Shown here piece after piece: positions 6,247 to 48,006 of a stretch of 64,000 nt of DNA. The notes under the pieces are model-generated. The model was not told the DNA's origin and did no database searches. It was given only the letters and a program-made list of their open reading frames with translations. Source of the DNA: an uncultured Flavobacteriaceae bacterium (GTDB lineage Bacteria > Bacteroidota > Bacteroidia > Flavobacteriales > Flavobacteriaceae); the NCBI GenBank assembly GCA_947494695.1, contig CANLWB010000006.1:186001-250000 (forward strand), read 5' to 3'. Numbering within the stretch: the stretch's first letter is position 1; each line of letters opens with the position of its first letter. Position numbers and translations under genes: made by a program.

Positions 6247-6269
6247 GGTTTTACCTATTACTAGGATTG

Positions 6270-6344
6270 TCGGGATGACAGGATTTGAACCTGCGACCAC
6301 ACGGCCCCCAGCCGTGTACGCTAACCGGACTGCGCCACATCCCG
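6270..6344 (-). tRNA. tRNA-Pro (anticodon GGG)
   Basis: Read on the minus strand, the seven-base acceptor stem CGGGATG pairs with CATCCCG at 6271-6277, with A as discriminator at 6270. The anticodon stem CACGG/CCGTG encloses the loop CTGGGGG, giving anticodon GGG (proline, codons CCC/CCU). The T-arm GCAGGTTCAAATCCTGT is intact. No CCA is encoded. The first 27 bases (6318-6344) are repeated three more times upstream, each copy truncated at the same base, so this is the only complete copy. Confidence 0.95.
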
Positions 6345-6492
6345 AAAGATAGTATCCAAGGAATACCCCTTAGACGTATATTTCTTTCCGCCACTATTAC
6401 GTGTCTTCAAACGTTTTTCTAAACTTATTTGTCTAACCAACATAATAACGGCCTAAACCTTTACTATACAAAATATAAACTACATATTTCAA
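6345..6492 (-). pseudogene. GIY-YIG nuclease remnant, copy 1 (nearest the tRNA)
   Basis: The minus-strand frame from TTG at 6492 reads KYVVYILYSKGLGRYYVG, then a TAG in the position of the Gln that follows the YIG motif, then TNK. Further frame breaks follow in the RNSGGKKYTSKG region. After GIPW the gene is cut and joined directly to the tRNA 5' end, so the C-terminal third is missing. It is too damaged to be expressed. It is nearly identical to copy 2, which shows recent tandem duplication. Confidence 0.75.
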
Positions 6493-6517
6493 TAGTTTCT
6501 TTTTCTATTCAACGACC

Positions 6518-6535
6518 ATTACGCCATGGCGTAAT
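6518..6535. repeat. 18-base perfect palindrome, copy 1
   Basis: ATTACGCCATGGCGTAAT is a perfect palindrome that ends one base before the truncated tRNA segment at 6536. It lies between the GIY-YIG 5' end and that segment. Confidence 0.9.
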
Positions 6536-6562
6536 ACGCTAACCGGACTGCGCCACATCCCG
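6536..6562 (-). repeat. Truncated tRNA-Pro 5' segment, copy 1
   Basis: The 27 bases are identical to the first 27 bases of tRNA-Pro(GGG): acceptor 5' strand, D-arm and D-loop, ending at the D-stem/anticodon-stem border. No anticodon or T-arm follows, so it cannot form a tRNA. Confidence 0.9.
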
Positions 6563-6710
6563 AAAGATAGTATCTAAGGAATACCCTTAAGACGTATATT
6601 TCTTTCCGCCACTATTACGTGTCTTCAAACGTTTTTCTAAACTTATTTGTCTAACCAACATAATAATGGCCTAAACCTTTACTATACAAAATATAAACTA
6701 CATATTTCAA
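6563..6710 (-). pseudogene. GIY-YIG nuclease remnant, copy 2
   Basis: This is almost the same sequence as copy 1: a TTG start at 6710, YVVYILYSKGLG, YYVG, TAG at the Gln codon, then TNK, frame breaks and a cut after GIPW where the tRNA segment begins. One extra or missing base in the GIPW region distinguishes it from copy 1. It is not expressible. Confidence 0.75.
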
Positions 6711-6735
6711 TAGTTTCTTTTTCTATTCAACGACC

Positions 6736-6753
6736 ATTACGCCATAGCGTAAT
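6736..6753. repeat. 18-base palindrome, copy 2
   Basis: ATTACGCCATAGCGTAAT has 7-base arms and a CATA centre. It abuts the tRNA segment that starts at 6754. One base differs from copies 1 and 3. Confidence 0.9.
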
Positions 6754-6780
6754 ACGCTAACCGGACTGCGCCACATCCCG
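6754..6780 (-). repeat. Truncated tRNA-Pro 5' segment, copy 2
   Basis: These 27 bases are identical to those at 6318-6344 and 6536-6562. The last seven codons of GIY-YIG copy 3 (RDVAQSG) are read from this segment. Confidence 0.9.
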
Positions 6781-7020
6781 AAAACTATCATCATCAAGGT
6801 ATCTTTTAATACCTCGTTTTTTTATTTTTCGCTCCATTTGTAAGGCTTCCTTTCGAGACTCACAACTATAGCTTGATATTAAAACCCAAGGAATACCCTT
6901 AGATGTATATTTTCTTCCTTCGCTGTTATGGGTTCTTAAACGCTTTTCCAAATTGTTTGTCTAACCTACATAATAGCGATCTAAACGCTCACTAAATATA
7001 ATATAAACTACATATTTCAA
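6757..7020 (-). pseudogene. GIY-YIG nuclease gene, copy 3, in-frame TAG
   Basis: From TTG at 7020 the frame reads KYVVYIIFSERLDRYYVG, TAG (6961-6963), then TNNLEKRLRTHNSEG, RKYTSKGIPWVLISSYSCES and RKEALQMERKIKKRGIKRYL. This is a complete single-domain GIY-YIG protein of the UPF0213/YhbQ size class (about 87 codons). The only lesion is CAG to TAG at the Gln after the YIG motif. The GIY (VYI), YIG (YVG), catalytic Arg (KRL), His-Asn and Glu (MERKI) regions are all present. The reading frame runs into the following tRNA segment and stops at TAG inside its D-loop. Confidence 0.8.
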
Positions 7021-7045
7021 TAGTTTCTTTTTCTATTCAACGACC

Positions 7046-7063
7046 ATTACGCCATGGCGTAAT
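7046..7063. repeat. 18-base perfect palindrome, copy 3
   Basis: The sequence is identical to copy 1 (ATTACGCCATGGCGTAAT) and abuts the outermost truncated tRNA segment at 7064. Confidence 0.9.
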
Positions 7064-7090
7064 ACGTTAACCGGACTGCGCCACATCCCG
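7064..7090 (-). repeat. Truncated tRNA-Pro 5' segment, outermost copy
   Basis: This copy matches the tRNA 5' part with one change (GTTAACGT for GTTAGCGT). It is the copy nearest the likely original promoter, so it is probably the 5' part of the tRNA gene that was first interrupted. Confidence 0.9.
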
Positions 7091-7106
7091 TTTAAATTTT
7101 GGTTCG

Positions 7107-7136
7107 CAAAGAAAGCATTTTTTAGTAAGAATACAA
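7107..7136 (-). promoter_or_regulatory. Likely original promoter of the tRNA-Pro(GGG) gene
   Basis: On the minus strand TTG (7134-7136), 19 bases, then TTTCTTTG (7107-7114) fits the Bacteroidota promoter (TTG, 19, TAnnTTTG) with one mismatch. It lies 16 bases before the outermost truncated tRNA segment and over 750 bases before the complete tRNA. Confidence 0.5.
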
Positions 7137-45905: not shown

Positions 45906-46079
45906 ATGACATTAACGATTCAAGAAAACAATTGCTGCAAAAACACTCTTGTAGAGCGAGTCAACACTATCTTGAAAAATGAATTTTATCTTGACTATAC
46001 CTTTACTAGTACGGTACAAGCTAAAAACACAATCAAATTGTTTTTTCTATGCCCTATTTATACTATTTTCAAATGATTA
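45906..46079 (+). pseudogene. IS3-family transposase (OrfB/InsF-like) fragment
   Basis: A 57-codon frame reads MTLTIQENNCCKNTLVERVN then TILKNEFYLDYTFTSTVQAK. This matches the last part of an IS3/IS150 OrfB, where a Lys/Asn-rich pattern of this type (usual form ENAIAERVNGILK-EFF) precedes the final Glu of the DDE catalytic core. Only the last third of the transposase is present, and the frame ends over the integrase stop region. It is a dead remnant. Confidence 0.55.
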
Positions 46080-47341
46080 TATTCTGTTTCCTTATAATCC
46101 ATGTTTTTTCTGGAATTGGATTTTAGCTTTACTTTTAATTGCTCCATATCCTTGCTGATTTTCTTTTCGATAACCCTGGCATATCTCTGTGTCGTTGATA
46201 ATTTTGTATGGCCCAAGAGTTTTGAAACGGTTTCAATAGGAACACCATTTAACAGCGCAACTGTAGTAGCGAAAGTATGACGAGCGACATGAAAGGTAAG
46301 GTTCTTATCAATTTTACATAGTTTGGCTATTTCCTTAAGATATTTATTGATCTTTTGATCGCTAAATACCCGTAGAAGTGAATAGTTGTTTTCAGCACAT
46401 GGATAATCGGAATATTTTCCTAGGATCTCTTTAGCTTCATCCAACAGGGGTAACTTTACGGACGTTTTTGATTTCTGACGTCTGACCATAATCCACTGCT
46501 CACCATCTATTCCATTGGCAATGCTTTTTCTATTCAAATTCTTTACTTCGATATAACTCAGACCAGTGTAGCAAGAGAAGACAAATATATCCCTTACTAA
46601 ACGCATGCTCTTTTTTGATATATAGAGTACCATCATAGCTTCAAGTTCTGATTGCTCCAAAAAAGGACAGTCGAATTCTTCATATTTCAATTCATATAGC
46701 GCAAACGGGTCTATCTTAATCCAACCATGCTTAAAGGCTAGGGTCGTAAATTTTTGCAAACGCTCCAAATGCTTCATTACGCCATTGTTATTCAGTGGTT
46801 GGGATTTCCGCAAAGGAGGACAAGTGCGAAGATAATTTTCAAATTTGACAATAAATGAATAGTCTAGTTGTGTCAAATGGACATCATTCGATTTAAATTC
46901 CTTTTTGATAAAACGGTCGATGTATTTTTCAGTGGCGCCATAATTCTTTATGGTTCCTTGGGCAAGTTTCTTCAATTCGTTGTCCCTATGGTATTCTATA
47001 AGATCCTTATAGGTTAAAACAGCTTTATCCTTGCCCAAATATCGGAGCTTAATGGCTTGCGCCGTAATTACCCTACCTTCATCTTTAAGTTGTTTGTAGG
47101 CTGTTTTGATGTTGGAGTATACATCATCCAGAATATCATTGATGTATTTTGCATTTTTTGTCCTTGCCTTTACTCGGCCTGCCATAGCAGACCAATGCTC
47201 TTCCAAGAGGGCCTCTTTGGTACTTACGTCCACAGGGATGCTATCTATCCAAATACGTGCATAGATAGGAATGGTCTCGTCCTTTCGGATTGAAGATTTT
47301 TTCAACCAAAAATGGACATTGAATGTTTGTGTAATTGTCAT
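46058..47341 (-). CDS. Tyrosine site-specific integrase (IntDOT/CTn type)
   Basis: The 427-residue protein has an Arm-DNA-binding N-terminus (TFNVHFWLKKSSIRKDETIPIYARI), a phage-SAM-like core-binding domain (YKDLIEYHRDNELKK to about residue 210) and a catalytic domain. It has H351-x2-R354 (HVARH), H378 (GHT) and Y387 (RYARV). The position of the first catalytic Arg (CYTGLSYIE) holds Ser-262, as in IntDOT of the CTnDOT elements, where Ser replaces that Arg. It integrates the island. The gene starts 230 bases from the 3' end of tRNA-Pro(UGG). This fits insertion at the tRNA 3' end. Confidence 0.92.
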   Translation of the reverse strand: MTITQTFNVHFWLKKSSIRKDETIPIYARIWIDSIPVDVSTKEALLEEHWSAMAGRVKARTKNAKYINDILDDVYSNIKTAYKQLKDEGRVITAQAIKLRYLGKDKAVLTYKDLIEYHRDNELKKLAQGTIKNYGATEKYIDRFIKKEFKSNDVHLTQLDYSFIVKFENYLRTCPPLRKSQPLNNNGVMKHLERLQKFTTLAFKHGWIKIDPFALYELKYEEFDCPFLEQSELEAMMVLYISKKSMRLVRDIFVFSCYTGLSYIEVKNLNRKSIANGIDGEQWIMVRRQKSKTSVKLPLLDEAKEILGKYSDYPCAENNYSLLRVFSDQKINKYLKEIAKLCKIDKNLTFHVARHTFATTVALLNGVPIETVSKLLGHTKLSTTQRYARVIEKKISKDMEQLKVKLKSNSRKNMDYKETEYNHLKIV

Positions 47342-47526: not shown

Positions 47527-47569
47527 CATTAAATTACGTATTAAATGTTTTTATTTAATACCCTATTTG

Positions 47570-47644
47570 TCGGGGTGGCAGGATTCGAACCTGCGACCTC
47601 CGCGTCCCAAACGCGGCGCGATAACCGGGCTACGCTACACCCCG
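47570..47644 (-). tRNA. tRNA-Pro (anticodon UGG)
   Basis: The minus-strand acceptor stem CGGGGTG pairs with CACCCCG and A (47570) is the discriminator. The anticodon stem CCGCG/CGCGG surrounds TTTGGGA, giving anticodon TGG (proline, codon CCA). The T-arm GCAGGTTCGAATCCTGC is standard. No CCA is encoded. An IntDOT-like island lies beyond its 3' end and a GIY-YIG element plus a broken tRNA copy lies before its 5' end. Confidence 0.95.
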
Positions 47645-47882
47645 AATTGGTTATCTTCTATAAATCGCTTAGCTCCTCTTTTCTTTATCTTCTTCTCCAA
47701 TTTCAATGCTTCTAACCGATTGGCTACTTCTATAATCTTTATAAGTTGCCATGGTGATCCGCCCTTTGTTGAAGGAACTAAACCCTTATTGTGTCTTTCT
47801 AATCTCTTTTTGATATCGCTGGTCTACCAACATAATATCGTGAACGTCTTTGACTATATAATATGTAAACTACATAATTCAT
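47635..47882 (-). pseudogene. GIY-YIG nuclease gene at tRNA-Pro(UGG), one-base deletion
   Basis: From ATG at 47882 the frame reads NYVVYILYSQRRSRYYVG and breaks one base later. Restoring one C gives QTSDIKKRLERHNKGLVPST, KGGSPWQLIKIIEVANRLEA and LKLEKKIKKRGAKRFIEDNQ, ending FGV-stop. That is a complete 82-residue GIY-YIG protein of the same family as at 6.3-7.0 kb. The lesion sits in the same Gln codon after the YIG motif as the TAG in the other locus. The last four codons and the stop (TAG at bases 8-10 of the tRNA) are read from the tRNA gene. Confidence 0.85.
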
Positions 47883-47897
47883 AATCCATTTTGGGTG

Positions 47898-47916
47898 GTC
47901 ACGCCTCTAGCGTGAC
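47898..47916. repeat. Palindrome abutting the broken tRNA copy
   Basis: GTCACGC-CTCTA-GCGTGAC has perfect 7-base arms and ends at 47916, directly before the tRNA-derived segment at 47917. On the minus strand its core ACGCTA..GGCGT matches the palindromes of the tRNA-Pro(GGG) locus. Confidence 0.85.
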
Positions 47917-48006
47917 GACCTCCGCGTCCCAAACGCGGCGCGATAACCATGCCTTCGGCTTGGCTAGCCGGGGTAGACCTGTCACGCCTTAGCGTGATAC
48001 ACCCCG
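47917..48006 (-). repeat. Broken tRNA-Pro(UGG) 5' copy with insert
   Basis: GGGGTGTA at the 5' end (47998-48006) and bases 47917-47948 (D-stem end, whole anticodon arm, variable loop start) match the real tRNA. The 9 bases of the D-arm between them are replaced by 49 bases (47949-47997). The copy stops in the variable loop, so it is not functional. Confidence 0.85.
47949..47997. repeat. Palindrome-rich insert in the tRNA D-arm
   Basis: The 49 bases contain TCACGC-CTTA-GCGTGA (47982-47997) of the same family as 47898-47916, plus GCC-TTC-GGC and GGCTAGCC palindromes. Confidence 0.75.

Follow-up and report, generated by a model that had tools for sequence, protein, structure and literature searches.

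Short GIY-YIG genes in bacterial tRNA genes whose displaced end is supplied again: candidate homing-type elements in Flavobacteriaceae and beyond

Tyrosine-integrase islands target tRNA genes, restore the gene end and leave a truncated copy behind. In fungal mitochondria, mobile open reading frames (ORFs) form gene hybrids at Allomyces atp6 and at Glomus atp6, atp9, cox2 and nad3, as stated in the accessible text of PMC3630166. SegB of phages T4 and T6 is a free-standing GIY-YIG homing endonuclease, and T6 carries tandem tRNA-Tyr/segB repeats formed by recombination, according to the available excerpt of PMC13096335. Mitochondrial palindromes, such as the GC clusters of yeast and the hairpin elements, are discussed as mobile in the accessible parts of PMC4478555 and PMC2800124, and intron endonucleases have been proposed as their movers in work cited in PMC4478555. 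The current work concerns an array of short GIY-YIG genes, palindromes and partial tRNA copies at the tRNA-Pro(GGG) gene of an uncultured Flavobacteriaceae bacterium (assembly GCA_947494695.1). The window, meaning the whole analyzed stretch of 64,000 nucleotides, covers positions 186,001 to 250,000 of contig CANLWB010000006.1.

The anatomy of this array is real, widespread and not ordinary: it matches that of gene-end-carrying homing elements, with a palindromic part besides. Judged from the sequences, the units are probably selfish GIY-YIG elements of the homing type (rough probability 0.6), which would insert in conserved genes, re-supply the displaced end and grow in tandem.

The array at tRNA-Pro(GGG)

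Three head-to-tail units are located upstream, in transcription order, of the whole tRNA gene. Each runs from a tRNA 5' piece through a palindrome and GGTCG to a GIY-YIG frame. Their positions in the window are as follows.

6269..6344, minus strand: whole tRNA-Pro(GGG), called by ARAGORN; its 5' part was probably supplied by the innermost unit, to judge from the flanks
6345..6562, minus strand: unit 3, 218 bp, with tRNA nt 1-28 at 6535-6562, palindrome at 6518-6535, and a shortened and frameshifted GIY-YIG copy
6563..6780, minus strand: unit 2, 218 bp, with tRNA nt 1-28 at 6753-6780, palindrome at 6736-6753, and a shortened and frameshifted GIY-YIG copy
6781..7090, minus strand: unit 1, 310 bp, with tRNA nt 1-28 at 7063-7090 (the flank points to the original gene start) and palindrome at 7046-7063
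6757..7020, minus strand: GIY-YIG frame of unit 1, with a TTG start, a single in-frame TAG at 6961-6963 and a stop within the next tRNA copy

The repeats of tRNA nt 1-28 show 100%, 100% and 96% identity at 6535-6562, 6753-6780 and 7063-7090, respectively. When the 18-base palindrome was searched in the window with up to 3 mismatches allowed, 3 matches were found against 0.02 expected from shuffled sequence, and the copy at 6736-6753 has one mismatch. The original prediction, made from this DNA alone, had described tRNA 5' copies, palindromes and GIY-YIG copies, only the innermost tRNA copy belonging to a full tRNA. This description holds, with repeats of 96-100% identity and three palindromes. 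ARAGORN calls one tRNA-Pro(GGG), at 6269-6344; the genome holds no other complete copy of it, and the matches next in rank are 74% identical.

Two details of that prediction have to be corrected. It had placed the insertion at the border of D-stem and anticodon-stem, with the palindrome merely touching the tRNA piece. Read from the sequence, the palindrome substitutes for the anticodon arm and the GGTCG of the variable loop comes next; thus, the truncated copy ends near nt 50. The same replacement of nt 29-45 was detected by script in two relatives (L158 and L193). Working GIY-YIG genes in the window are not supported either. Unit 1 still gives a PF01541 match of 57.9 bits at 6814-7017 despite its one TAG. 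Units 2 and 3 are identical in 213 of 218 positions, both lack 83+11 nt present in unit 1, and all of their frames have stops, so none of the three copies retains an intact frame.

The units of 218 and 310 bp contain the GIY-YIG frame only, and no other genes were seen in them. A tyrosine-integrase island at the tRNA was rejected as a candidate on this ground, there being no room for an integrase gene.

Unoccupied sites, target genes and distribution

PF01541 matches were found at 12 places in the genome from which the window comes (the source genome, G000). Upstream of its tRNA-Arg(TCG), three GIY-YIG copies spaced 310 bp apart have open frames and are nearly identical, with few differences. 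The truncated tRNA copies at this site consist of nt 1-22, the palindrome CCTGCCTGCCGGCAGGCAGG and nt 23-38, and a second full copy of tRNA-Arg(TCG) is absent from the genome.

Both sites could be compared among 12 genomes of the genus. At the tRNA-Arg(TCG) site, located beside yqeY, 10 of the 12 are uninterrupted, the source genome has three units and G010 has one. At the tRNA-Pro(GGG) site, located beside trxB, 8 of the 12 are uninterrupted; the source genome and G008 are occupied, and no tRNA-Pro(GGG) was seen in the stretches fetched from G001 and G007. Upstream of the outermost truncated copy, the sequence is similar to the flank seen at uninterrupted sites. Most probably, therefore, this copy represents the start of the original gene, and the working tRNA owes its start to the element.

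The proteins do not follow their neighbors in divergence. Those at the Arg sites of G000 and G010 are 69% identical, compared with 91% for the neighboring YqeY, and the G010 protein is 77% identical to that of G048, a genome of a different genus. A plain tandem duplication of a tRNA together with an adjoining gene, without any mobility, would account for the near-copy units within arrays, such as the 213/218 identity in the window and the few differences among the three Arg copies; however, it fits poorly with the uninterrupted orthologous sites, with protein identities out of step with YqeY, and with the unrelated tRNAs and protein genes that each have their own gene end. The uninterrupted sites and the other targets make us disfavor this explanation, which is very improbable.

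On the protein tree, genes with the same target tend to group together, although switches occur: 41 changes of target were counted, against a mean of 77.9 after shuffling, and 0 of 200 shuffles were as low, on a tree of 77 columns with many unresolved forks in which near-copies help the clustering. Each lineage thereby tends toward its own target. In six pairs of four Leu-site genes dN/dS was 0.06-0.37, which shows purifying selection on these GIY-YIG genes. Such selection, together with the finding that 8 or more of the 12 genomes of the genus have the Leu-site unit, would also be expected if the gene were a cassette retained for the benefit of the cell, for instance for tRNA gene dosage or defense. 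Against a useful cassette are the patchy occurrence at the Arg and Pro(GGG) sites, the decayed copies in the source genome and the many unrelated targets; we consider it improbable.

Two forms of the unit were found. In form U, a truncated 5' piece is followed by the GIY-YIG gene and the whole tRNA (examples are Arg, Leu, Pro, Ser, Gln, Glu and Phe). In form D, the whole tRNA is followed by the GIY-YIG gene and a 3' piece (examples are Val, Asp, Asn, Cys, Arg, Met and Leu), which includes a copy of the terminator in several loci. Both forms at tRNA-Leu break at about one place, the U copies ending near nt 29 and the D copies starting at nt 26-35. In tRNA listings of both strands, only L023 and L032 show opposite-strand tRNAs, and each has a co-directional one as well.

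Targets are not limited to tRNA genes. Relatives of the GIY-YIG gene are located behind a same-strand tmRNA gene in L128, L138 and L146, and one (L042, 2331-2570) lies within a 23S rRNA gene near a sequence that we take to be the I-CeuI site. In five loci (L119-L122 and L236), the gene comes after the GGxGF codons, at one fixed codon, of what is presumably an epimerase gene, judging from the frame displayed for L122. In all five, the gene start is re-supplied behind the GIY-YIG gene with different letters; the tRNA copies are too similar to reveal an origin from a foreign species. In L110, the gene lies in another protein gene between inverted ends ACCTGTGAAATA/TATTTCACAGGT, identified by eye. 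Inverted ends near these sequences were seen in L110 and L119-L122, and the right end codes for the C-terminus of the GIY-YIG protein. An Rfam scan of 33 loci, with the window array and most tRNA loci outside its scope, matched a group I intron in L034 only, where the GIY-YIG gene precedes it. At loose threshold, Rfam gave only three weak matches in ten loci without a tRNA call, one of them a tRNA in L113.

The original prediction, in which an element breaks into a tRNA gene and brings the lost 5' part with it, is thus supported on this point, and the strain comparison and wider search it had proposed found uninterrupted sites together with spread to many isotypes, tmRNA and protein genes, not one fixed array confined to a single tRNA. 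Versions that regenerate the 3' end, as well as the palindrome as replacement of a tRNA arm, lay outside its view.

Units of this kind are widely distributed. A contig scan with the Arg-site protein found 36 relatives, which by their titles belong to Bacteroidota, Omnitrophota, several Patescibacteria-type phyla, Ignavibacteria and others; a co-directional tRNA lies within 1.2 kb of 26. A profile (A1), built from an alignment of 19 of the Arg-site-like GIY-YIG proteins, had matches in 84 of the 120 family genomes at 1e-12, a count that includes GIY-YIG genes without a tRNA beside them. At 1e-17 it matched 145 of the 395 genomes in the phylum, and a single genome gave as many as 14 matches. Tandem units recur across loci, and G362 has five units 450 bp apart.

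Adjacency was defined as a co-directional tRNA at most 130 nt behind the GIY-YIG gene or at most 330 nt before it. It was found in 79 of 152 loci with GIY-YIG scores above 40 bits, a set from which duplicates and palindrome-only loci were skipped and in which L169 and L171 still repeat two others. By score, the counts are 38/45 at 90 bits or more, 14/25 at 70-90, 21/37 at 60-70, 4/32 at 50-60 and 2/13 at 40-50. Among 28 further loci of the genus taken from the plain Pfam family (L050-L077), 5 are at tRNA-Leu, and the remaining 23 lack any tRNA within 1.2 kb. The phylum search gave 29 new top loci, 24 of them with a co-directional tRNA within about 450 nt. The other five comprise three with tRNA pieces recognized by eye (L226, L232 and L233), one at a contig edge (L231) and the epimerase locus L236.

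Two technical explanations were rejected. Assembly artefacts do not apply to arrays inside the long contigs of G001 (4.7 Mb, L200), G111 (3.1 Mb, L143) and G036 (1.3 Mb, L158) or in the one-contig genome G362. Chance repeats were dismissed on the shuffle expectation for the window palindrome and on the control windows, none of which (0/294) passed the same-tRNA test described below.

All five proteins tested match PF01541, at 57.0 to 63.5 bits (curated cut-off 22.6). Residues Y5, Y16, G18, R26, H30 and E62 are invariant across 19 aligned rows and presumably include the catalytic positions. In profile searches, the closest solved relatives belong to the UPF0213 branch (PDB 1zg2, 4.3e-16; 1ywl, 1.2e-13), and SLX1 was also matched (7cq2, 2.1e-6). 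A tblastn search of 50,697 phage records with the Arg-site protein gave no match, and neither did a search of plasmids. In Neisseria, small GIY-YIG enzymes act on single-stranded DNA, which they cut at a repeat; our search of the accessible literature for single-strand GIY-YIG enzymes led nowhere and did not find them.

Palindromic blocks in the second tRNA copy

A palindromic block is located inside the second copy of the same tRNA in 59 of 98 loci, compared with 0 of 294 control windows. This test requires at least 14 nt of the same tRNA summed over both sides of the block, and presumed duplicate fetches were left out; 39 of the 98 loci did not pass it. At a cut-off of 10 nt the counts are 64/98 and 17/294, and at 12 nt they are 62 and 2. 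Among the 64 blocks found at 10 nt, some are related copies of a single event, as in the eight Leu loci of the genus, and 4 or more script picks (L019, L116, L227 and L239) look wrong by eye. The 64 comprise 34 that are inserted and 30 that replace at least 8 nt, 21 of these 30 at the anticodon arm. For example, nt 28-44 of tRNA-Pro(CGG) are replaced by TCCGCCTCAGGCGGA, and nt 29-45 of tRNA-Val copies by TCCCGA...TCGGGA.

Two other tests were less clean than this one. An unanchored palindrome test found a stem of at least 7 in 53 of 78 loci, but 2173 of 7454 pooled control windows reached the value of their own locus, and the test is too noisy. In the anchored test, 20 of 76 loci gave no remnant of at least 12 nt. 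Of the 56 remnants, 22 had stems of at least 7 and 35 had stems of at least 6, compared with 79 and 231, respectively, of 2234 control anchors.

A second element of the window, at tRNA-Pro(TGG), has blocks of this kind.

47569..47644, minus strand: whole tRNA-Pro(TGG), called by ARAGORN
47645..47882, minus strand: decayed GIY-YIG gene, with a PF01541 match of 30 bits at 47671-47826 and one TAG inside the match
47893..48006, minus strand: inactive tRNA-Pro(TGG) copy with two palindromic inserts seen by eye, one near the start (47982-47997) and one replacing the T arm (47899-47915)

A T-arm replacement like the one at this site was found by script in L199-L201 and L203. A frame of 427 aa (46058-47341, minus strand) starts about 230 bp behind this tRNA, and its C-terminal part looks, by its motif, like a tyrosine recombinase. 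The two sides of this tRNA may thus hold mobile DNA of different kinds.

At L132 and L145, palindrome-bearing copies of tRNA-Val are called tRNA-Stop(tta) and tRNA-SeC(tca) by ARAGORN; such copies are likely a source of odd tRNA annotations. Some tRNA arrays are made of palindrome-bearing copies: L127 has three and one cut by Ns, and L154 has three and one chimera. The chimera, the fourth tRNA-Met copy of L154, combines normal and palindrome-bearing anticodon regions, which is a sign of recombination inside the arm.

One palindrome, the CCTG-type CCTGNCTNCCGNCAGNCAGG, is a dispersed repeat, found in 11 of 12 genomes of the genus and 33 of 120 of the family, compared with 0 for the reversed pattern. 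Among the 99 sites listed, 11 (at 7 loci) have a listed GIY-YIG match no more than 500 bp away, against 0.083 expected. Strong GIY-YIG matches occur in 19/33 genomes with the palindrome and 15/87 without it at 3e-19, a threshold chosen by the analyst, and in 30/33 and 54/87 at 1e-12, an association that ignores relatedness and genome size. By eye, the CCTG palindrome is embedded in a longer repeat common to L082, L087, L089, L092 and L094, which come from three genomes of the genus, and in L091, L093 and L095 it seems to occupy the loop of a different inverted repeat. In the window, a search for it found none, and a search for the TCACGC palindrome found one place, 47899-47915. On contig C8 of the source genome (L098), tRNA-Thr(GGT) is followed about 90 bp on by its 3' piece with the CCTG palindrome, recognized by eye as the one present in the Arg-site copies, and no GIY-YIG gene lies between them; a unit since lost may have left this piece behind.

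That palindromes stand in for entire tRNA arms may point to an action on hairpins. A structure-directed GIY-YIG nuclease might open the arms of hairpins or cruciforms and swap them, thereby moving short palindromes into the arms and loops of tRNA genes. The tRNA-flanked GIY-YIG gene would then be the autonomous form, and the dispersed palindromes without a gene its non-autonomous offspring. Blocks in the second tRNA copy with whole arms replaced, the dispersal of the CCTG palindrome, its excess near GIY-YIG matches, its greater frequency in genomes with a strong match, and copies seemingly in hairpin loops are all consistent with such an exchange, as is the relation of the profile to SLX1, a structure-specific endonuclease. 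However, 88 of the 99 listed sites are away from a listed GIY-YIG match, 3 of the 33 palindrome genomes have no match at 1e-12, no such block was noticed at the epimerase insertions, and the genome association takes no account of relatedness or genome size. Hairpin exchange seems unlikely as the main process, though less so than a cassette useful to the host. If it were true, a mover would be supplied for one class of orphan palindromic repeats.

Proposed mechanism and comparison with known systems

In the mechanism we favor, that of a homing-type selfish element, a short GIY-YIG gene would insert in a conserved host gene, mostly a tRNA gene, bringing a copy of the displaced part. Form U would restore the 5' part, and form D the 3' part, in several loci together with the terminator; the host would retain a working tRNA through the re-supplied gene end. 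The nuclease gene has the same direction as the tRNA, and its expression might depend on the promoter of the tRNA or on read-through. The enzyme would cut or nick the unoccupied allele, and recombinational repair would copy the cassette in, so that cutting would drive the spread. Tandem arrays may arise from renewed cutting or from unequal recombination between the repeats. The displaced copy is inactive, and in many cases a palindrome splits or replaces one of its arms. The observations behind this mechanism are the anatomy, including the re-supplied start in the five epimerase loci, the unoccupied sites and their flanks, the protein identities out of step with YqeY, the target-specific lineages, the purifying selection and the recurrent tandem units, with the fungal mobile ORFs and the T6 repeats as parallels.

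Several observations weigh against this interpretation. The homing model leaves the palindromes without explanation, and palindrome-bearing tRNA arrays without a GIY-YIG gene between the copies occur in L127 and L154. At about 80 residues, the protein consists of one domain and has no separate DNA-binding part. The re-made tRNA-Arg sequence is, by reading, the same as the unoccupied tRNAs of several relatives; thus, simple immunity by interruption is not evident. No second tmRNA copy is shown at L128, L138 and L146. No tRNA was called within 1.2 kb for 10 of the 36 relatives, and 73 of the 152 loci, including 7 of 45 at 90 bits or more, fail the adjacency rule. The target clustering rests on a tree of 77 columns.

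If the homing interpretation is correct, very small selfish elements that preserve the genes they enter are present in many Bacteroidota and in some representatives of other phyla, and annotation would list them as stray GIY-YIG genes by tRNAs. Truncated tRNA copies and tandem tRNA arrays would be explained, and the short palindromic repeats would gain a testable candidate mover. A puzzle would also be posed, namely, how a nuclease of about 80 residues chooses one tRNA gene yet spares its own.

The original prediction held that no such element had been described. This holds in part: no description from a bacterial chromosome was seen among the titles and abstract openings listed from the accessible literature on GIY-YIG proteins with tRNA genes, palindromes or Bacteroidetes, a search whose coverage mostly excluded subscription journals; the mobile ORFs of fungal mitochondria and the tRNA-Tyr/segB repeats of phage T6 are, however, comparable.

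Like the units described here, integrase islands have a tRNA target and a restored gene end, but these units hold a GIY-YIG gene only. The UPF0213 and SLX1 proteins are the closest solved relatives; they differ from the present proteins in that these occur in the context of tRNA copies, and the entries are silent on mobility. SegB, like the genes described here, is encoded by tRNA genes and forms tandem repeats with tRNA, and it cuts within tRNA genes; it differs in being a phage gene, and the available excerpt mentions no displaced, palindrome-bearing tRNA copy (PMC13096335). Mitochondrial palindromes are likewise short and dispersed, with a mover not established in the accessible parts of the reports (PMC4478555, PMC2800124), whereas the bacterial ones sit in a displaced tRNA copy next to a nuclease gene.

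There is also a likeness in anatomy to the fungal mobile ORFs, in which, according to the accessible text, an endonuclease gene (GIY-YIG in Glomus atp9) lies in a conserved gene, the displaced end is copied and the native end is left (PMC3630166). The same anatomy was found here: an endonuclease gene in a conserved gene, the end re-supplied and the native end left. The fungal ORFs differ in concerning protein genes, C-terminal ends and organelles (PMC3630166), whereas the bacterial units are chromosomal, are found mostly at tRNA genes, involve both 5' and 3' ends, form tandem arrays and have palindromes in the displaced copy. Thus, if the homing interpretation is correct, the gene-end-carrying strategy of fungal mitochondria extends to bacterial chromosomes and to genes for structural RNAs.

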